This document shows positions 8,930-18,982 of a stretch of DNA of 39,256 nt, piece by piece. This DNA is from Rhodocytophaga aerolata (GTDB lineage Bacteria; Bacteroidota; Bacteroidia; Cytophagales; 172606-1): assembly GCF_030503435.1 (NCBI RefSeq), contig NZ_JAUKPO010000043.1, forward strand, positions 1 through 39,256, in the 5' to 3' direction. The position numbers and the translations under genes are program-made. The notes beneath the pieces were generated by a model. It saw nothing but the letters and a program-made list of their open reading frames with translations. It did not search any database and had not been told where the DNA came from. Numbering within the stretch: the stretch's first letter is position 1; every line of letters begins with the position of its first letter.

Positions 8930-9357
8930 CCCCCTTTATTGAGACTACTCCATTACTCCATACTTATGGATGAATCCCACTAATTTTTTCTTCCATACGG
9001 CCGTATGAAAATTGAGGGTCTAACATCTGGCAATCATAGATAGCAAAGACAGAGGTAAAACGAATGACAGGGTTAATAGTGCTTGTATGGCAGGAGAGCA
9101 TCGGTTGATGAATTCTAAATTGCTCGCCTTATTTGGCTTTTCCATTGCTATGTTCTTTATTAGAATTGAAGCCCTTTTTAACAGCTTGCTAACAAAATAG
9201 AGTAACTATCCGTAAAGGTTAGTACTGACTACTAAACCTGTGAGGTTTTTTCCACTTACTTCAAAACAGGCACCAATATATTTAGCTCATAGGTGTAGAT
9301 TCTTTAAAGGTCCGGTAATCAAAGGCTACTAATCATTCTACTATCTGTTTTAAGTTT
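8930..9357. other. gene-free interval 8930-9357
   Basis: No gene with clear support. A 41-codon minus-strand frame (9020-9145) begins MEKPNKASNLEFINRC and ends in a hydrophobic stretch. It might be a fragment or chance. The region probably also contains the promoter of the sugar dehydrogenase gene. Confidence 0.4.
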
Positions 9358-10593
9358 ATGGTAAAGCTTGTGACTGTCTTTTTGAGCACATTACTTATTT
9401 TGAGTGCCTGCAGCAGAGGTACGAACGATGCCAACAAAAGTGAAGCGATCGGCAATGAAACACCGGGACAGCCGGTAGAAATCAGGGAGCCGGATGCAGG
9501 CTACCAACCGGCTTTTGCAGGGCAAACGCGTGCACCTGGCGTGCAAACCACTACCCCCTATGAAGTCCGCATTATTACCGAAAAATTAAATAAACCTTGG
9601 GGCATCGCTCTACTGCCTGATGGGCGCTTTTTGATTACAGAAAAAGAAGGGAGCATGCGTATCGTTACCACCGATGGTCAACTAAGTGACAAAATCACAG
9701 GTTTACCCCAAGTAGTAGCAAAAGGGCAGGGAGGTCTGTTGGGGCTCGTCCTCGACCCAGACTTTGCTACCAACAGAGAGTTGTATTGGATGTTTACTGA
9801 AAAAAGAGAGAAGGGCAACCTGGCGGCAGTCGCTAAAGGTAGATTATCAGCCGATGAACGCCGGATAGAAAATGCCAGCGTTATATACCGCCTTACACCA
9901 GCTTATGATGGAAACAATCATTATGGTGGCCGCTTGCTATTCGACCAGTCCGGCAACTTATATGTTACTACCGGTGAGCGTTTCAAAGAAGAAAGACGTG
10001 TGCATTCACAGGATTCTACTACATCCCTTGGTAAGCTACTTCGCATTACAAAAGAAGGAAAACCAGCTGTTGGCAATCCGTTTGCCGGGAGGGCCAATGC
10101 AAGTGCCCAGATCTATTCTATGGGTCACAGAAATGTACAGGGCATTGCTATTCATCCGCAGACAGAAGACTTGTGGATAGCTGAAATGGGACCACAAGGG
10201 GGCGATGAACTGAACTTTGTTGAGCCTGGTAAAAATTATGGATGGCCAAAGATTTCCTATGGAATTGAATACAATGATGACAAAATCGGGCAAGGAAAAA
10301 CCCGGCAGGAGGGCATGGAGCAACCTGTTTATTTTTGGGATCCTGTATTATCGCCAAGCGGGATGACTTTCTACAAAGGCAATGCTATACCAGAGTGGAA
10401 GAACAATCTGTTCATTAGTGGTCTCAACAGCCATCATATTGCCCGCATTGTGTTGGAAAACAGAAAAGTGGTGGGCGAAGAACGTTTGCTGGCAGATCAG
10501 CAGCAAAGGTTCAGAGCAATAATTGAGGGAAATGATGGGGCTCTATATGCGATCACCGATGAAGGCAGGTTGTATAGAGTTGGCAAGCAGTAA
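9358..10593 (+). CDS. PQQ-dependent sugar dehydrogenase-like lipoprotein
   Basis: A 411-aa protein of the glucose/sorbosone dehydrogenase (GSDH) beta-propeller family. A lipoprotein signal ends in LSAC (Cys18). Family motifs in order: KPWGIALLPDGRFLITEKEG, GQGGLLGLVLDPDF, the catalytic-His blade NNHYGGRLLFDQSGNLYV, GKLLRITKEGKP, GHRNVQGIAIHP, WIAEMGPQGGDELN, NYGWPKISYG and LSPSGMTFYKG. Relatives oxidise aldoses with PQQ as cofactor in the periplasm; the sugar used cannot be read from sequence. It converges on the hydrolase gene at 11910-12746, with an IS5 element inserted between them. No PQQ synthesis genes are in the window. Confidence 0.93.
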   Translation: MVKLVTVFLSTLLILSACSRGTNDANKSEAIGNETPGQPVEIREPDAGYQPAFAGQTRAPGVQTTTPYEVRIITEKLNKPWGIALLPDGRFLITEKEGSMRIVTTDGQLSDKITGLPQVVAKGQGGLLGLVLDPDFATNRELYWMFTEKREKGNLAAVAKGRLSADERRIENASVIYRLTPAYDGNNHYGGRLLFDQSGNLYVTTGERFKEERRVHSQDSTTSLGKLLRITKEGKPAVGNPFAGRANASAQIYSMGHRNVQGIAIHPQTEDLWIAEMGPQGGDELNFVEPGKNYGWPKISYGIEYNDDKIGQGKTRQEGMEQPVYFWDPVLSPSGMTFYKGNAIPEWKNNLFISGLNSHHIARIVLENRKVVGEERLLADQQQRFRAIIEGNDGALYAITDEGRLYRVGKQ

Positions 10594-10852: not shown

Positions 10853-11782
10853 GAAGCTGTATTAAAAGGGTAAGAGGAGGAAAAAGTACTCAAAGTAAAT
10901 AAGTTTGTAGTGCCAACTGACAGACAAATTTCCATGAGTACTACTCAAAGCAAAGGAAAACGAAAGAAATATCCAAGTGACATCAGCAAAAATGGCTGGA
11001 AAAAGTTAAAGCCGTACCTACCTGGGCCAAAGTCAGACCCACAAAAAGGGGGACGTCAACCCGTACCGTTGAAAGAGGTAATTAATGGGATCATGTATGT
11101 GGTGAAAACCGGTTGTAGTTGGAGAAGTATGCCACATGACCTACCTCATTGGTCAACAGTCTATGGCTATTTTAATTGTTGGAGTAAAAGTGGATTATGG
11201 CAGCAGATCCACTCTTTTCTAGTCCGGAAAGTGCGTCGGCAAATGAAAAGAAAACCCACTCCTAGCGCGGGCAGTTTAGATTCTCAGAGTGTCAAGACGA
11301 CTGCTTGTGGGGGAGAGCATCGAGGATTTGATGCGGGCAAGCTTGTTAAAGGCCGCAAACGCTTCATTCTTACTGATACACAAGGCTTATTATTAGCTGT
11401 TTGGATTTGTGCGGTAAGTGTATCGGAAAAACAAGGAGCCCAGCAGCTTTTACGCTATATCAAGCGGGTAGCCTGCCTGCGGGCACTTTGCGGGCAGATC
11501 AAGTTGGTCTGGGTAGATGGGGGTTACCGAGGAGAAGACTTGATTAACTATGTGGAAAAGTTATGGCAGTGGACCTGGCAGATAGTCTTAAGAACTGACC
11601 AGGTAAAAGGCTTTAAAATCCTGCCTCGAAGGTGGGTAGTGGAAAGGACTTTCGCCTGGATACTTAATGCCCGGAGATTAAACAAAGATTACGAAAAGAA
11701 CCGGAGAAATAGCCAGTCCATGGTCTATCTAGCTATGCTCCCCCTCTTGTTAAATCGATTGGACTAGTTTTAAAACAGCTTC
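10853..11782 (+). mobile_element. IS5-family insertion sequence, apparently intact
   Basis: A 930-bp element. Ends are GAAGCTGTATTAAAA at 10853-10867 and TTTTAAAACAGCTTC at 11768-11782, matching at 14 of 15 positions as inverted repeats. A direct TAA lies immediately outside each end (10850-10852 and 11783-11785), the 3-bp target duplication expected for some IS5 subgroups. The single transposase frame is uninterrupted and its stop lies 1 nt from the right repeat. It inserted between two convergent genes without breaking either. Confidence 0.93.
10934..11767 (+). CDS. IS5 family transposase
   Basis: A 277-aa DDE transposase. Catalytic residues visible: Asp116 in SLDSQSVKT, Asp195 in VWVDGGYRGED and Glu237 in RRWVVERTFAWILNARRL (the Y/W-V-V-E-R-T-F signature). 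The N-terminal DUF4096-type domain reads DISKNGWKKLKPYLP, then GIMYVVKTGCSWRSMPHDLPHW. I chose the ATG at 10934 over a GTG at 10910. The length is normal for single-ORF members of the family and the frame is unbroken, so the protein may be active. Confidence 0.93.
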   Translation: MSTTQSKGKRKKYPSDISKNGWKKLKPYLPGPKSDPQKGGRQPVPLKEVINGIMYVVKTGCSWRSMPHDLPHWSTVYGYFNCWSKSGLWQQIHSFLVRKVRRQMKRKPTPSAGSLDSQSVKTTACGGEHRGFDAGKLVKGRKRFILTDTQGLLLAVWICAVSVSEKQGAQQLLRYIKRVACLRALCGQIKLVWVDGGYRGEDLINYVEKLWQWTWQIVLRTDQVKGFKILPRRWVVERTFAWILNARRLNKDYEKNRRNSQSMVYLAMLPLLLNRLD

Positions 11783-11812: not shown

Positions 11813-11872
11813 AAGAATTACCCACAAAAAGCCTCTTCAGCTATAAGGAGAGGCTTTTTGTGGGTAATTCTT
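11813..11872. terminator. 24-bp perfect hairpin, bidirectional terminator
   Basis: A perfect 24-bp inverted repeat with a 12-nt loop: left arm 11813-11836, right arm 11849-11872, with GCCTCT facing AGAGGC at the apex. It lies between the sugar dehydrogenase (+) and the hydrolase (-), with the IS5 element inserted on its left. It was probably the shared terminator of the convergent pair. The stem contains AAAAAGCC / GGCTTTTT, as in Rho-independent terminators. No long U-run follows the stem, and its length is greater than usual. Confidence 0.75.
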
Positions 11873-11909
11873 AATAAGCCGCAGGGACAACCCCTCCCCC
11901 GACTATCTC

Positions 11910-12746
11910 TTATTTACCAATAAAGGAGAGTAAATCCCCATTAAGCTTATCTTTTTCGGTGTAGAATAATCCGTGAGGAGCATCTTTATAAACAATATAC
12001 TGAGCCTGAGGCAAGGCCTTTGCTGTACGGTCCCCTGAGGCTTCAATGGGCACGGTTTTATCATCATCGCCATGAATAATTAAGGTAGGAACCTTTATTG
12101 AAAGCAAATCTTGTCTGAAATCTGTTTCTGCAAAAGCATGGGCAGCCTCTATCGTGGCCCTATGAGAAGCGGCATAGGTGCGCATAAAATCCCCATCCAG
12201 ATGTGCCTGGCTTACTTTGCTATTGAGCAGGCCAACGCTGTAGAATTTTTTGGAAAAGGATTGCAGGAAAGCTGCCCGGTCCTGCTGCATTTGAGCGAGC
12301 ATTTCATCGAAAACACTTTTATCTACCCCATCCGGATTATCACTTGTTTTTAGCATGAAAGGAGTCACTGAGCTGACAAAGGCTACTTTAGACACTCTTG
12401 CTCCCTGGTAGCGACTCATATAGCGGGCTACCTCTCCACCCCCCATAGACATGCCCACCAGCGTCACCTCTTGCAGTTCAAGTGTATCGAGCAATATTTT
12501 CAGATCGTCTGCAAACGTATCGTAGCTGTAGCCATCAAAGGGTTTAGAGGACTGCCCGAAACCCCGGCGGTCATAGGCGATTACACGCAAGCTGTGTTTG
12601 GGTAATTCGGCTAATTGGTAGTCCCACATGGCACTACTCAAGGGCCAGCCATGAATCAGCACCACTGGTTTGCCTTTGCCTAAATCCTGGTAGAAAATGT
12701 TAATCTCATGGCCGGAAGCATCCGAGCCTGTTTTAATAAAAGGCAT
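11910..12746 (-). CDS. alpha/beta hydrolase, chloroperoxidase/arylesterase type
   Basis: A 278-aa alpha/beta hydrolase close to the cofactor-free haloperoxidase/arylesterase group. Oxyanion-hole loop LIHGWPLSSAMW (31-42), nucleophile Ser100 in VGMSMGGGEVARY, acid Asp228 in IHGDDDKTVP and His258 in DAPHGLFYT. It has no signal peptide, so it is likely cytoplasmic. It may hydrolyse esters, or form peracids in the presence of peroxide; the substrate is unknown. ATG at 12746. An 18-bp operator-like dyad lies 91-108 nt upstream. It recurs before the sigma gene at 14698, with a TetR regulator gene between, so TetR control is likely. Confidence 0.92.
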   Translation of the reverse strand: MPFIKTGSDASGHEINIFYQDLGKGKPVVLIHGWPLSSAMWDYQLAELPKHSLRVIAYDRRGFGQSSKPFDGYSYDTFADDLKILLDTLELQEVTLVGMSMGGGEVARYMSRYQGARVSKVAFVSSVTPFMLKTSDNPDGVDKSVFDEMLAQMQQDRAAFLQSFSKKFYSVGLLNSKVSQAHLDGDFMRTYAASHRATIEAAHAFAETDFRQDLLSIKVPTLIIHGDDDKTVPIEASGDRTAKALPQAQYIVYKDAPHGLFYTEKDKLNGDLLSFIGK

Positions 12747-13690
12747 AAAGAATCATTGGGTTAGGGGTATAACAAGTATTAAGTCTACTACTTTGTAAAA
12801 GCAGCAGACAGAATCAATAGAGTTCTATACGAAGTTACCAAACAAGTGTTTGGTTGGAAGTGACAAAAATGAGTAGAGATTCATTGCGATTTATATACAA
12901 AAGATAGATACAATTATTTGTGAGTAGTAGAAGAGTTGATAATCAAAACCAATTAGATATAAAATGCAATTATGTAGATATTACACCCTTTTTAATTATA
13001 TTTTTCCCTTATATCTGCTTGTACTTTTAAGGCATTCTATTTTATCGTCTGAAATTCAAACTTTTATAATATTCTCATTTAAAAAAAGTCTGTTGACAGC
13101 AAGAGCGCTATCAGGTGAGTAGCATTCGTGAGATGAATAAGTGAAAGCAATAAATAGAAGCTAGTCAGCTACTAATCAAGCAATAAAATACATAAGTAAT
13201 GCCTATGATTGACTTTTCTCTTAACCCGGATGTGGAGCTAAGTGCAGCATTAGCAAGCAAATGGCTCCACTAGGAAAGACTTTTGTAAGGAGCGCAACAT
13301 TTACTTATTTCCTAACTTTTCTTTGTTTAAGGGCTCAAATGTAAGTCAAGAAAACAGCTCCTAGCAATGAAGCGATTGATTTTACTGGCCAGTGGACAAA
13401 AAAAAGAGCTACTTGTTTTACTTACCTATATGCTCAGGCTGATCAATAAAGAATTCTCTAAATTTTCTTCCTAAAGCACTAAGGAAGCAATGCAGACTTG
13501 AATGATTAAGCTCTCTGCTTGGTTGAAACCTGTTCATTTGTAGCATTCTCATAGGTCTGTACTGTTGGACTAGGTATACGTTGACTTTATAGTATCAATC
13601 ACATCTATTCTTCAACGCATTATTCTGCTAGGGTTTGACCAAATGTAAGAGCAGGACAAATAAAATGTAGTAAATAGAATGAAACCTTAT
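12747..13690. other. intergenic region 12747-13690
   Basis: About 940 nt without an intact gene. The right end of the hydrolase promoter region is here (operator at 12837). A 22-codon frame at 13205-13273, MIDFSLNPDVELSAALASKW, reads like a protein start and stops at TAG. Continuing past the stop gives ERLL, and the whole faintly recalls the N-terminus of 2OG-Fe(II) oxygenases. It may be a decayed gene. Confidence 0.4.
12837..12854 (-). promoter_or_regulatory. probable TetR operator upstream of the hydrolase
   Basis: Sequence ACCAAACAAGTGTTTGGT: two perfect 8-bp arms around a 2-bp centre, typical size for a TetR-family operator. Read toward the hydrolase it is followed by TAACTTCGTATAGAACTC. 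The copy at 14596-14613 differs by one base and is followed by TAGCTTTCGTATAATGCTC. The shared sequence after the dyad suggests it overlaps or abuts the -35 region of a TATA-type promoter. The binding protein is inferred to be the TetR regulator at 13691-14248. Confidence 0.72.
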
Positions 13691-14248
13691 TTACACTAAC
13701 AAACCCTCTATCCTGTGACGAGTAGCTGCAAAAAAAGTTTTATCAAAGAAGATGCAATAGAGGGTAATGGCGCCTTCAATCTCTTGAATAGCCTGCCAGG
13801 ATAGTTGCTTGCTTTGCTCAAAACTATACTGAGCGGAAAATATATGGGTAAAAGCCTCTCTCCACTCAGTAAAAAAAGCTTGAATAATGCGTGTAAAAGC
13901 AGAAGGATTAATAGCCGCATAGCCGCCTGTTTGCCCCATAATACAGCCCCCTTGCTCTTGAAAATAAGCCTGCTCAGTAGCTTCCATCATTTTTTCTAAG
14001 CGCTCTTTGGCTGATTCGGACGGGGAAAAAGCGACACTAAACACCTGCCTTTTGAACGAGTCGTGAACTGCTCCCAATACCCCTTCCATTAAATGCTCTT
14101 TAGAAGTGAAATAATGGTAAATGCTCCCTTTCAAAAGACCACAGGCTTTCCCAATAGTTTCCATTGAGGTATTGTAATAGCCTCTTTCCCGGAATAATTG
14201 ATAGGCTTTCCAAATAATCTGCTCTCTTGATGTGTGACCCTTATTCAT
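13691..14248 (-). CDS. TetR family transcriptional regulator
   Basis: A 185-aa TetR/AcrR-type repressor. The N-terminal helix-turn-helix domain reads SREQIIWKAYQLFRERGYYN, then TSMETIGKACGLLKGSIYHY and FTSKEHLMEGVL, all canonical positions. The C-terminal domain (about 70-185) should bind a small ligand and has a TetR_C-like LEKMMEATEQAYF and GGCIMGQTGG. I chose the ATG at 14248 (MNKGHTSREQ). An ATG at 14263 and a TTG at 14293 are in frame but add non-homologous residues. It sits between the two genes that carry the 18-bp dyad (12837 and 14596). I see no copy of that dyad directly before this gene. Confidence 0.92.
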   Translation of the reverse strand: MNKGHTSREQIIWKAYQLFRERGYYNTSMETIGKACGLLKGSIYHYFTSKEHLMEGVLGAVHDSFKRQVFSVAFSPSESAKERLEKMMEATEQAYFQEQGGCIMGQTGGYAAINPSAFTRIIQAFFTEWREAFTHIFSAQYSFEQSKQLSWQAIQEIEGAITLYCIFFDKTFFAATRHRIEGLLV

Positions 14249-14446
14249 ATGAAGGGTAAACATACGAAGAAAAGAAAAAATCCCATTAACCAAGCAAATA
14301 TCCTCAGATAACTTTTGTTATACATGTTACTTTCCTTTTTTGGTTAGGGAAGCCTGGGTTGAATTACAATCTGCCAATACTCCTATTACTCCCTCAAATA
14401 GAATTAGTGAATAAGCAAGTTTCTCGGAGTAGTAACCTTCTTTATG

Positions 14447-14480
14447 CTCCCATTGTCTATAATCTCCCATTGTCTATAAC
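14447..14480 (+). repeat. 17-bp tandem direct repeat, two copies
   Basis: Two adjacent units, CTCCCATTGTCTATAAT and CTCCCATTGTCTATAAC, differing only at the last base. They lie in the control region between the TetR and sigma genes. They may be a recent slippage duplication or a two-site binding element. Confidence 0.75.
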
Positions 14481-14595
14481 AGGGATGCTCTCTTCCATAG
14501 ATTCTGTCTTAGAACACGTTTTTGGGCGTAAGAAAGAGGCACTTAAGATCAGTTTGCAAATTATTATCAACTTGGCTTACTTTTTTTACTTTAAA

Positions 14596-14613
14596 ATCAA
14601 ACAAGTGTTTGGT
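14596..14613 (+). promoter_or_regulatory. probable TetR operator and promoter of the sigma gene
   Basis: Sequence ATCAAACAAGTGTTTGGT, 17 of 18 identical to the site at 12837-12854. It is followed by TAGCTTTCGTATAATGCTC, in which TATAAT (14622-14627) is a plausible -10 element. The dyad ends 84 nt before the ATG of the sigma gene, almost the same distance as in the hydrolase copy. Repression by steric block of RNA polymerase is the likely mode. Confidence 0.72.
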
Positions 14614-14697
14614 AGCTTTCGTATAATGCTCTTATAGAAAAGCTTATCCTTATCGCTTAAGCACATAAAATCTTCTTCTGCTTACTTCTTTCATTTT

Positions 14698-15243
14698 ATG
14701 AAAAAACCTCTACCTACAGAGCAAGAGCTGATAGGCCTGCTTCAAGCCAAGGAAAAAAAAGGATTTGACTTACTGTATCATTTATACTCGAATGCTTTAT
14801 ATACCATCGCATTCAAGATTGTTCATTCCCAACAACTCGCTGAAGATGTCTTGCAGGATAGCTTTATAAAAATTTGGAAAAACATCCATACATACGATGC
14901 CTCCAAAGGCAGTCTGTTTACTTTCATATTAAATATCACCCGTAACACAGCCATTGATAAAACCCGTTCCCTGTATTATCAAAAGCAAAGACAAGGCTTG
15001 AAATGTACTATTCTGCTCTTTGACAGGGTTGATCAAAAACACTGCTTTTATCAGCAGGTGGATTATATCGGTATTACTAAATACATAGACGCACTAGCGC
15101 CCCAATACAAGCATCTGATTGAGTATGTCTATTTGAAAGGCTATACACACCAAGAGGCCGCAAAAGCGCTAGAAATTCCACTAGGTACAGCTAAATCCAG
15201 ATTGAAAAGTGCTATCGCTCAATTACAATTGATGATTCTTTGA
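14698..15243 (+). CDS. ECF-type RNA polymerase sigma factor
   Basis: A 181-aa group 4 sigma factor. Sigma2 domain at about 23-93: DLLYHLYSNALYTIAFKI, then the core-binding AEDVLQDSFIKIWKNI and the -10-recognition part FTFILNITRNTAIDKTR. Sigma4 at about 126-178 has a helix-turn-helix GYTHQEAAKALEIPLGTAKS followed by RLKSAIAQL. It would direct RNA polymerase to a small set of promoters. Such genes usually sit next to an anti-sigma gene. Here a hairpin terminator follows 36 nt after the stop and no anti-sigma candidate is nearby, so control may be transcriptional, through the TetR-type operator upstream. Confidence 0.93.
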   Translation: MKKPLPTEQELIGLLQAKEKKGFDLLYHLYSNALYTIAFKIVHSQQLAEDVLQDSFIKIWKNIHTYDASKGSLFTFILNITRNTAIDKTRSLYYQKQRQGLKCTILLFDRVDQKHCFYQQVDYIGITKYIDALAPQYKHLIEYVYLKGYTHQEAAKALEIPLGTAKSRLKSAIAQLQLMIL

Positions 15244-15346: not shown

Positions 15347-16402
15347 TTACTCAAAAGCTTTCTTTAGTTCTGTTGTTGCAAAGGCTTGGGCTTGTTGGGC
15401 TTGCTCAAGTAGGGCTGACATACCAAAAAATTCATGAGTTACTCCTTTATACACTTTACGCATGACCATTACTCCATCGTTTTGCAACCGTTTCGCTAGT
15501 TCTGCGCCATCTGACTCCAGAGGATCAATTTCTGCATTGATAATCGTTGTGGGAGAAAGTCCTGTCAAATCAGTATGAATCAATGAGATATATCGGTGTC
15601 TGTTTGTTTTCCAGTTAGGCTTATAGTAGTTAAAGAACCATTCCATCAGTGGCCTGCTCAACGGCTTGGCATTTGCATATTTCTCGTAACTTGGCGAGAG
15701 CAAATCTTCATCGGCGATTGGATAGACCGAAAGAATATGTACTGGCAATGGTAGGCTACGTTCCTTTGCCATCAAAGACACCGCCACGGCTAAGTTACCA
15801 CCTGCACTTTCACCAGCAGTAGCTATCTTAGAAGGATCACCATTAATGGAAGCAGCATTCTCTACGACCCATTTATAAGCGGCAAAGGAATCTTCATGAG
15901 CGGCAGGAAAGGGATGCTCAGGCCCTTGCCGGTAAGCGACAGAGACCACGATAGCTCCCACTTTATCCGAAAGTGCCCGGGCAGAAGGATCATACGTATC
16001 CAGATTAGCGATCACCCAACCACCACCATGATAATAGACAATCACCGGAAAGGGCCCTGCTCCCTTTTTAGGTGTATAGATCCGCACGAGAACCCCTTGA
16101 GGAGAAGGCCCTGGAATAACCTTATGATCGATCAATAAGTCCGGTTGGGTAAGTGGAAGCCCTTTCTCCTTGATTAGCGATTTAACGGCATCAGTGGGCG
16201 TAGGGGCTTCTCTTGCCTGCCCTGGTGTTAATTCATGTAAGGGTGGGGTGCCAAAACTATCTAGTTCCTCAATAATGGCCTGCATCTGCGGATCAATCGT
16301 AGGAGCCCAGCTTGGCTTTGGCCCTTTTGGCTTGATAACTATAGGAAGAAGCGGCCCTGGAATTTCAGGTACACAGGCACTAACCAGCAGCAGAAGTAAC
16401 AT
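15347..16402 (-). CDS. alpha/beta hydrolase-3 (HSL-type) esterase, probable lipoprotein
   Basis: A hormone-sensitive-lipase-type esterase. Visible elements: oxyanion-hole motif YYHGGGWVIAN, nucleophile Ser in TAGESAGGNLAV, acid Asp in INAEIDPLESDG and His in VTHEFFG, in family order. It hydrolyses short acyl or aryl esters. The N-terminus shows a hydrophobic run ending in LLVSAC, a lipobox, so it is probably anchored outside the cytoplasm. The start is uncertain. The ATG at 16402 gives MLLLLLVSAC with no positive charge. In-frame TTGs at 16426 and 16513 would add a better n-region (the latter including TKRQPL). The frame stays open to a TTG at 16684, which is too long for a signal. It converges on the sigma gene. 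Confidence 0.85.
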   Translation of the reverse strand: MLLLLLVSACVPEIPGPLLPIVIKPKGPKPSWAPTIDPQMQAIIEELDSFGTPPLHELTPGQAREAPTPTDAVKSLIKEKGLPLTQPDLLIDHKVIPGPSPQGVLVRIYTPKKGAGPFPVIVYYHGGGWVIANLDTYDPSARALSDKVGAIVVSVAYRQGPEHPFPAAHEDSFAAYKWVVENAASINGDPSKIATAGESAGGNLAVAVSLMAKERSLPLPVHILSVYPIADEDLLSPSYEKYANAKPLSRPLMEWFFNYYKPNWKTNRHRYISLIHTDLTGLSPTTIINAEIDPLESDGAELAKRLQNDGVMVMRKVYKGVTHEFFGMSALLEQAQQAQAFATTELKKAFE

Positions 16403-16781
16403 AGCTGCTTTTGCCAGAACAAACAAAGATAGAGGCTGCCTTTTTGTGATAGCCTGTGTTGGAGAATCCTTAGAACCTTTCCCGGATGCTGCATGGGAGT
16501 GAATGTGTTTCAAAATGTTTAGGAGGTTTGTGGTGAATACTTGTACTGCTTGTAACAGACATTTATCAAGACACCCTTGGAAGCAAACTAGATAAATAAC
16601 CTGTAAAGTAACTTGGCAAGATGCGTTCCTAAAGGTATCTACTACAAGTACGAATGAGTTTGCTTTCCAGATGAGTGAAGACAAAAAAAATTATTTAAGC
16701 AGTAACTTGAGCGTAGCTTAGTTTAGTGGAGGATAAAGTAAGCACTATAGCAGAAGCCAAATCCCAATATCAGAGTTAATT

Positions 16782-17412: not shown

Positions 17413-18153
17413 ATGCGTGTACCACTATCTAATTCCAAGGAGCGTACTGCTTCTGCTAAGAACGGGGAAAATCTCAGACGCAGATCGTTTCTCAAATTTG
17501 CAGGCTTTGCCACTGCCTCAACTGCTGTAATGCTCAGCGGCTGCAAAGAAGTACTTGATAAACTTCCTTACCCGGTGGATGTAGATCCGGATGATTATGT
17601 ACTTAAAACTGTTCGGCTGGGAAAGGGCGACACTGGGGTGTTAAACTATGCTTATACCCTGGAACAACTAGAAGCCGAATTCTACATTCAGGTGGTAGCT
17701 GCCTCAGGTTTTGCCTCTATGTTTAACTATTATGAGCAACGTTCGCTCAGAGAAATCCGCGATCATGAGGTAGTACACCGGGATTTTTTGAAAGCTGCCC
17801 TTGGAGATAAAGCTATTGGCCAGCTCAAATTCGACTTTAAAGCTGTAAATTTTGAAGATAAGCAAAGTATTTTGCAAACAGCTAAAACATTTGAGGATTT
17901 AGGGGTAGCTGCATATAATGGTGCTGGCAAAAGACTGGCAAGTCCTGATTTGCTGACCATTGCAGGTAAAATAGTATCTGTGGAAGCTCGTCATGCTTCT
18001 ATTATCCGTTCGCTGGTAGATACAGACCCAACTTCTTTTGCCGGCGATGATATTATAGATATGAATGGATTAGATCTGGCTTATGAACCTGCTAAAGTAC
18101 TGGAAGCAGCCAATCCGTTCATTTTGAATAAAATAGATGCCAGTGAATTATAA
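17413..18153 (+). CDS. ferritin-like lipoprotein with Tat signal, first gene of the second pair
   Basis: A 246-aa paralogue of the protein at 5847-6554. The Tat signal LRRRSFLKFAGFATASTA ends in lipobox LSGC (Cys44). Ferritin-like ligands: Glu83/86 (YTLEQLEAEFY), Glu118-xx-His121 (DHEVVH), Glu160 (KTFEDLGVAAYNGAGKR) and Glu190-xx-His193 (SVEARHAS). Expected to be a lipid-anchored periplasmic four-helix bundle, possibly metal binding; the reaction is unknown. The next gene starts 25 nt after the stop, exactly the spacing of the other pair. Confidence 0.88.
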   Translation: MRVPLSNSKERTASAKNGENLRRRSFLKFAGFATASTAVMLSGCKEVLDKLPYPVDVDPDDYVLKTVRLGKGDTGVLNYAYTLEQLEAEFYIQVVAASGFASMFNYYEQRSLREIRDHEVVHRDFLKAALGDKAIGQLKFDFKAVNFEDKQSILQTAKTFEDLGVAAYNGAGKRLASPDLLTIAGKIVSVEARHASIIRSLVDTDPTSFAGDDIIDMNGLDLAYEPAKVLEAANPFILNKIDASEL

Positions 18154-18178
18154 ATCCACCTAACCTGAAATAGACACC

Positions 18179-18982
18179 ATGAATATATTTGACTTACTTA
18201 CTACGGTTGATCCACAGAAGATCAACCTGGATGAACAGATGGCCTCCGGTAGACGGGCCATGTTCCGCCAACTAGGCGACTGGGGAAAAAAAATGGCCCT
18301 GGGTGCCATTCCTTTCGGCGCAGCTACCCTATCATCCAAAAATGCCATGGCCGCCCATGAAGATAATGTGGATGTCCTTAATTTTGCTCTTTTACTTGAA
18401 TACCTGGAAAGCGAATTTTATATCATGGGCCTGGACACCATTGTACCCAAAGGCACAGATGATGAAAAAGTGTTTATGCAAATCAGTAAGCATGAAAAGC
18501 AACATGTAGAGTTTCTGCAAAAAACGATCAAAAGCCTAGGTGGAATGCCCATAGATAAACCGGCTTTTGACTTTACTGCTGGTGGCGCCTTTATGCCTTT
18601 CAGTGATTATGATCAGTTTAAAGTATTGTCTCAGGCATTTGAAGATACGGGTGTGCGGGCATACAAAGGTCAGGCCGCTAACTTGATGGATAATGATACA
18701 CTACTCACTGCCGCCTTACAAATACATTCGGTAGAAGCCCGACATGCGGCAAAGATCCGGATGATGCGTGACGAATTCGGATGGATCTATTTTAATCACC
18801 GGGGAAGAGGCATGCCCTATGCTACACAGCCTGTGTACAAGGGAGAAAACATGTCAAAGCAAGCCGGCATTGAGCTGAAAACAATAACTACGGTAGAGGA
18901 AGGTGGTTTTACTGCCGCCTTTGATGAGCCTTTGACAAAAGAAGAAGTCACTGCTATTGCCAGCTTGTTTCTAAAAAAATAA
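18179..18982 (+). CDS. ferritin-like domain protein, second gene of the second pair
   Basis: A 267-aa paralogue of the protein at 4988-5821. An RR motif, SGRRAMFRQLG (23-33), precedes a short hydrophobic segment ending near ALGAIPFGAATLSS, so Tat export is plausible. Ligand pattern: Glu74/77 (LLLEYLESEFY), Glu106-xx-His109 (KHEKQH), Glu155 (AFEDTGVRAYKG) and Glu186-xx-His189 (SVEARHAAK). The C-terminal half has TQPVYKGENMSKQAGIEL, as in desiccation-related Ferritin_2 proteins. It is the last gene of a two-gene operon; a terminator follows 22 nt after the stop. Confidence 0.88.
   Translation: MNIFDLLTTVDPQKINLDEQMASGRRAMFRQLGDWGKKMALGAIPFGAATLSSKNAMAAHEDNVDVLNFALLLEYLESEFYIMGLDTIVPKGTDDEKVFMQISKHEKQHVEFLQKTIKSLGGMPIDKPAFDFTAGGAFMPFSDYDQFKVLSQAFEDTGVRAYKGQAANLMDNDTLLTAALQIHSVEARHAAKIRMMRDEFGWIYFNHRGRGMPYATQPVYKGENMSKQAGIELKTITTVEEGGFTAAFDEPLTKEEVTAIASLFLKK

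Follow-up and report, generated by a model that had tools for sequence, protein, structure and literature searches.

Gene content of the locus

The window (the whole stretch of 39,256 nt analysed here) carries a gene for a TetR-family regulator between two almost identical 18-bp dyads, one facing a hydrolase gene and the other a gene for an ECF sigma factor. The relevant features, in order along the forward strand, are:

11910..12746, minus strand: alpha/beta hydrolase ABH1, 278 aa (Pfam Abhydrolase_1, 3.9e-39)
12826..12851, minus strand: putative ECF-type promoter of the hydrolase gene, AAAC-N16-CGTATA, overlapping dyad 1
12837..12854, minus strand: putative operator dyad 1, ACCAAACAAGTGTTTGGT, reading ACCAAACACTTGTTTGGT toward the hydrolase; 14/14 half-site positions
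13691..14248, minus strand: TetR-family repressor, 185 aa from ATG (TetR_N, PF00440, E 1.7e-15)
14596..14613, plus strand: putative operator dyad 2, ATCAAACAAGTGTTTGGT, toward the ECF gene; 13/14 half-site positions
14599..14625, plus strand: putative ECF-type promoter of the sigma factor gene, AAAC-N17-CGTATA, overlapping dyad 2
14698..15243, plus strand: ECF sigma factor, 181 aa (Pfam Sigma70_r2, 6.1e-16; Sigma70_r4_2, 9.4e-10)
15347..16684, minus strand: esterase ABH3, Abhydrolase_3 / hormone-sensitive-lipase type (Pfam, 2.1e-61)

The regulator is assigned to the TetR family by its TetR_N DNA-binding domain. It shows a weak likeness to the LmrA/YxaF-type C-terminal domain (TetR_C_13_2, 20.3 bits against a cut-off of 27), and it scored 60.6 bits with the NCBIfam equivalog AcuR, below the cut-off of 247. 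The sigma factor has the layout of an ECF, with only region 2 (residues 26-91) and region 4 (residues 126-176) joined by a linker of fewer than 50 residues. ABH1 is of the non-haem haloperoxidase/arylesterase-like kind, with bromoperoxidase, chloroperoxidase T and arylesterase among its solved relatives. By eye, the ABH3 protein shows a hydrophobic stretch of the lipoprotein kind with LLVSAC at its end, and its true start probably lies inside the listed open reading frame.

A scan of the window reproduced what an earlier, sequence-only reading had described. The two dyads are identical at 17 of 18 positions, and their distances to the start codons are 90 nt for the hydrolase and 84 nt for the ECF, where 85-91 nt had been given. 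The tails that follow them toward the genes are similar (AACTTCGTATAGAACTC on the hydrolase side, AGCTTTCGTATAATGCTC on the ECF side), and tetR lies between them on the minus strand, with its ATG at 14248. No dyad stands near the start of the window tetR, the nearer one being 347 bp away, which counts against reading these genes as one module.

Allowing up to three mismatches, the only matches in the window were these two dyads, each found on both strands (shuffled window: mean 0.02 matches). In the organism's own genome (9.07 Mb), a scan with up to two mismatches returned a single further dyad, at C168:10114-10131; the many unrelated copies that the sequence-only reading had named as contrary evidence did not appear. 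With up to three mismatches the genome gave 13 matches (7 + 6) against 15 (8 + 7) for a reversed-pattern control, and since this total does not exceed the control we regard the three-mismatch sites as background.

Several neighbouring features were seen in passing. An IS5-family transposase gene (10910-11767) lies directly downstream of ABH1, so that the neighbourhood may be mobile. Between it and the 3' end of ABH1, at about 11814-11873, we noticed by eye a near-perfect inverted repeat (aagaattacccacaaaaagcctct and its complement), possibly a two-way terminator. Two consecutive Ferritin_2 proteins (Pfam) are encoded at 17413-18982.

Conservation of the dyad beside tetR relatives

The sequence-only reading had proposed looking for the dyad beside orthologous tetR genes, and it is conserved there. 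We assembled 110 TetR loci, comprising 80 contigs among the matches listed, six places from a search of 59 genomes and 24 loci from a search of the bacterial order; these loci are not all independent, and the full 300 bp upstream is present in 107 of them. In 61 of the 110 relatives among the matches listed, the 300 bp upstream of the TetR match start contain a dyad matching at least 12 of 14 half-site positions, whereas 20 dinucleotide shuffles of the same loci gave a mean of 0.2 (largest value 1) and the reversed palindrome gave 0. Widening the distance to 1.2 kb raises the count to 79 of 110 among the matches listed. The other 49 relatives among these matches have no dyad within 300 bp, which counts against both the operator and the module reading; some of these loci have related palindromes with other spacing.

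A class-wide search found TetR matches in 15 of 395 genomes, with the dyad present at 7 of the 14 loci outside the organism's own genome and no ECF match at any of the 14 within stretches of about 2.6-3.6 kb. The two sets overlap in part (L269 is the same as L063, and others look like near-copies). Close variants of the recognition region GLLKGSIYHYF occur in many of the TetR loci inspected. The subfamily is found here in Bacteroidota and, by record titles, in Campylobacterota and Proteobacteria; one plasmid record has a TetR relative at 31% identity, and none was found on viral contigs. In a number of loci (L071, L080, L081, L089 and others) the same kind of TetR has a member of a different hydrolase family nearby; the dyad is often present, and no close sigma factor lies in the flank covered.

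Because it is kept upstream of tetR relatives as a phylogenetic footprint, the dyad is very probably a TetR operator. By the same token, both dyads of the window are very probably docking sites of the neighbouring TetR repressor, and we propose with high confidence that ACCAAAC-N4-GTTTGGT is the operator of this TetR subfamily. Among the literature matches listed for ACCAAAC and TetR, no title reports a TetR operator.

Sister clusters with TetR, ECF and esterase genes

The third genomic dyad lies in a cluster on C168, between divergent genes for a TetR protein 70% identical to that of the window and an ECF sigma factor 62% identical to the window ECF over the first 147 residues. An Abhydrolase_3-type esterase gene, homologous to that of ABH3, follows tetR. 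As this dyad is part of a paralogous TetR-ECF pair, the regulon appears small and local, and it seems quite likely from the sequences that it is both local and common to the ECF and hydrolase genes. The single regulon of a hydrolase and a sigma factor predicted by the sequence-only reading is supported in part, with the dyad common to both genes and its third copy in the paralogous pair. Within region 4, most of which is absent, the frame of the C168 ECF passes into unrelated sequence; this ECF is therefore probably not functional, and the finding counts against the module reading. The frame (L041, 10219-10704) may have been broken by a mobile-element insertion, and the promoters of that cluster may now depend on another sigma factor.

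TetR, a close ECF and an Abhydrolase_3 esterase occur together in four clusters (window, C168, G004 and G006) from three genomes of one family. Gene order differs among them: hydrolase and tetR leftward with ECF rightward in the window, esterase and tetR leftward with ECF rightward in C168, esterase leftward with tetR and ECF rightward in G006, and tetR, esterase and ECF all rightward in G004. The G006 cluster is cut by the end of its 5-kb contig, so that only the start of its ECF is visible. Including the organism's own genome, the TetR protein was matched in 6 of 59 genomes (E<=1e-25) and in 29 of 390 genomes of the order (E<=1e-30); no match at E<=1e-25 was found in G001, of the same genus, or in the family members G002, G003, G005 and G007. 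Among the 110 TetR loci, many of which are only about 3.5 kb long, two (L072 and L232, kept in all 110-locus counts) have a weak ECF match (29% and 21%) within 4 kb, neither with a dyad.

The hydrolase named in the sequence-only reading, ABH1, does have a dyad, but the commoner partner is the second esterase: homologs of ABH3 lie near tetR in the three sister clusters, although ABH3 itself is dyad-less in the window. Lipoprotein-like N-terminal stretches are visible by eye in the esterases of all four clusters. In a tree of ECF proteins, one change suffices for the three TetR-type ECFs of adequate length (support 78/89). The tree does not place the G004 ECF next to those of the window and C168, contains long branches, and is only compatible with a single origin of the TetR-type ECFs.

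A putative ECF-type promoter overlapping the probable operator

The sequence-only reading had the two genes share a promoter as well as an operator. The common tail agrees with this, and to it we add that an ECF-type promoter appears to overlap the operator, since the AAC of the left operator half-site forms AAC-N16/17-CGT with a CGT in the tail. AAC at -35 and CGT at -10 are described as hallmark boxes of ECF promoters, alongside positive autoregulation and a co-transcribed anti-sigma factor (PMC8103513, as far as the available text goes). By sequence, the window sites have these boxes of an autoregulated ECF promoter.

The four ECF clusters contain six strong dyads, and each has CGT at 5-6 bp on one side only (6 of 12 sides), in 6/6 cases the side that faces an ECF or hydrolase gene. 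Elsewhere, CGT occurs on 1 of 208 dyad sides (110 TetR loci, among the matches listed). The difference corresponds to p about 4e-8, a value to be read with the sites being not independent, the clusters kin by descent and the CGT criterion set after the first sites had been seen, which inflates p. The AAC/CGT idea arose at C168 and the two sites of the window; G004 and G006 were also examined. A weaker dyad (11/14) in front of the C168 esterase gene likewise has the CGT. The combined element lies ahead of the ECF gene in 4/4 clusters (in G004 the ECF gene is the one after the esterase) and ahead of the esterase in C168 (the weak site), G004 and G006. For the window ABH3 neither a dyad nor the combined element was found, which counts against the module reading. 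The common tail is best read as an ECF-type promoter, and the sigma factor therefore probably drives both genes.

Searched as a composite (AAAC-N4-GNTNGGT-N5/6-CGT), the element has five matches in the organism's own genome, four of which are the module promoters; because a reversed control also gives four, it is the location of the matches that counts. The other seven family genomes have 1-3 matches each, and one of the two in G006 is the module ECF promoter; the G004 module site misses the pattern because its half-site ends in GTTTGTT. A looser composite pattern was discarded, with 243 matches against 252 for the control and zero mismatches only at the two window sites.

A wider ECF regulon is not claimed, because AAAC-N16/17-CGTATA occurs at 23 sites here and at 21 in G001, where the TetR was not found; the reversed pattern gave 109 here, a poor yardstick owing to its different composition. 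We also sought a conserved AAC/CGT promoter ahead of other ECF relatives and rejected it. In the 300 bp upstream of 30 such relatives there are six single AAC-N14..18-CGT matches, not at a constant place; those of L124 and L125 are no more than 100 bp from the presumed start. Start codons were guessed in this comparison, and several rows begin inside the gene. With no constant place upstream of its relatives, this ECF group is not one known to use AAC/CGT boxes.

A few intergenic AAAC-N16/17-CGTATA sites of the organism's own genome (C111:777539, C111:1002450 and C99:44212) precede genes that by eye encode a stress-type oxidase, a universal stress protein and a response regulator; these sites may belong to another ECF or be chance. 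In the window, AAC-N17-CGTAAA without a dyad lies at 9191-9216. A glucose/sorbosone dehydrogenase gene (9358-10593) follows some 140 bp further on and may be an ECF target outside TetR control. A dehydrogenase of this kind was considered as a module member and dropped: three clusters have one nearby, but identity to the window copy is only 24-28% in G004 and G006.

Absence of an adjacent anti-sigma gene

Anti-sigma proteins commonly keep ECF sigma factors in check. A paralog of the window ECF in the same genome (C11, 56% identical) has an adjacent anti-sigma-like gene, which we call RskA-type from a reading of its sequence rather than from a family search. Among 29 loci of ECF relatives (3.5 kb each, a sample of the order, in which 234 of 390 genomes have an ECF match), 27 have an RskA-like match, 26 of them within 200 bp of the ECF and one (L112) at 1.3 kb in a locus cut by its end; L123 and L126 have none. 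This TetR is found neither in the 29 loci nor at C11.

In the window, tblastn with the C11 anti-sigma-like protein found no RskA-like gene, and a Pfam scan of nine window proteins gave no anti-sigma match. No RskA-like match was obtained in C168 or in 16 kb of G004; the 5-kb G006 contig also gave none, but its end inside the ECF precludes a judgement. A further ECF with an anti-sigma is present in both G004 and G006 (L108, L110), and because an anti-sigma-partnered ECF is also present, the TetR-type ECF is an extra copy in G004, G006 and the organism's own genome. To the sequence-only reading this adds that its relatives mostly have an RskA-type neighbour and that the window ECF has none.

Proposed mechanism and alternative explanations

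From the dyads, their conservation beside the TetR subfamily, the fixed CGT of the ECF clusters and the missing anti-sigma gene, we infer TetR binding, the specificity of the sigma factor, the direction of control and a ligand. Without ligand, a TetR dimer would sit on ACCAAAC-N4-GTTTGGT ahead of the ECF and hydrolase genes and block the overlapping promoters. A ligand, which may be a hydrolase substrate such as an ester, would release it. The ECF would then direct RNA polymerase to AAC-N16/17-CGT at both promoters and amplify its own synthesis and that of the hydrolase. As the -35 AAC lies inside an operator half-site, TetR would compete with region 4 of the sigma factor for these bases, and it would do the job of the RskA-type anti-sigma in the nearest paralogs. 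On balance we favour TetR, not an anti-sigma, as the gate of a self-amplifying ECF and its hydrolases, and we lean equally toward the window ECF recognising its own promoter. Self-recognition has against it the lack of a constant place for these boxes ahead of other ECF relatives, and the fact that AAAC-N16/17-CGTATA is about as frequent in G001. Only tentatively do we propose the evolutionary account in full, that in this lineage an ECF from the group paired with RskA-type anti-sigmas gave up that partner and came under TetR through a half-site, ACCAAAC, that doubles as the -35 box, giving a ligand-opened, self-amplifying switch with esterases, some apparently lipoproteins, as its output.

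The same operator evidence would equally serve a TetR that represses both promoters while another sigma factor reads them, the ECF gene being a plain TetR target. That the 30 other ECF relatives lack an AAC/CGT pair at a constant place fits such an arrangement, as does a TATAAT in the window ECF site. The TATAAT is, however, not kept in the other six sites, and by eye the seven sites do not match the housekeeping boxes of Bacteroidota (TTTG / TAnnTTTG). Together with the fixed CGT beside all six strong ECF-cluster dyads, against one of 208 sides elsewhere, this makes promoters read by another sigma factor unlikely in our view, if not negligibly so.

More improbable still is that the TetR senses a substrate and represses esterases, with the ECF gene captured by rearrangement and its control without a role. 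Capture would suit the wider family, where no close ECF was found near TetR (two of 110 loci with a weak match within 4 kb) and a different hydrolase family is its neighbour in a number of the 110 loci, and it would suit the IS5-family transposase beside the hydrolase. It sits poorly with the recurrence of TetR, ECF and Abhydrolase_3 in four clusters of differing gene order, in each of which the ECF gene follows a dyad with CGT. We give least credence of all to the dyads belonging to another regulator or being a chance repeat or mobile-element relic. The distance of the window tetR start from any dyad and the 49 of 110 relatives without one within 300 bp would be expected then, but not the footprint beside the other TetR relatives, nor that the only other near copy in the genome falls at the paralogous TetR-ECF locus.

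The probable operator common to the hydrolase and ECF genes is what remains of the sequence-only reading as it stood; promoter type, anti-sigma, esterase and precedent needed correction or addition. If the TetR-gated switch that we favour holds, the locus offers a concrete route, the reuse of a TetR operator as part of an ECF promoter, to a question that is little explored, namely how some ECFs came under DNA-level control. The locus also points to ACCAAAC-N4-GTTTGGT as an operator of a TetR subfamily. Since the C11 paralog of this genome has kept its anti-sigma gene, the proposed rewiring can be tested in one strain.

Comparison with known systems

The sequence-only reading knew of no described system combining these genes. 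We likewise found no description of the module itself in the titles and abstract openings of the matches listed for ECF/TetR/anti-sigma, AcuR and orphan ECF. A TetR-controlled ECF has nevertheless been proposed: ECF203, with a Streptomyces example, is presented in the available text of a review as a transcriptionally regulated group, possibly TetR-regulated (PMC8999054), and the window module may be seen as a variant of that kind. Likened by the review's description and not by sequence, the two agree in that the ECF has no anti-sigma listed with it and that a TetR repressor encoded nearby is proposed to control its gene (PMC8999054). They differ in that the nearest kin found for the window ECF are RskA-partnered ECFs of the same bacterial order, and in that the window has an identified putative operator, common to hydrolase genes, which overlaps an AAC/CGT promoter.

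AcuR of the Rhodobacter acuR-acuI-dddL system is the best NCBIfam match of the window TetR, at a score far below the cut-off, and there too a palindrome overlaps the promoter. Its operator, TAATAGAC-n6-GTCTATTA, is unlike ACCAAAC-N4-GTTTGGT, and the available description is of a three-gene operon without a sigma factor (PMC3017554). The SigK-RskA-type pairs are close on the side of the sigma factor, given the identity of the window ECF to the C11 paralog with its adjacent anti-sigma-like gene; where such pairs have the anti-sigma gene, the window has genes for a TetR and esterases.
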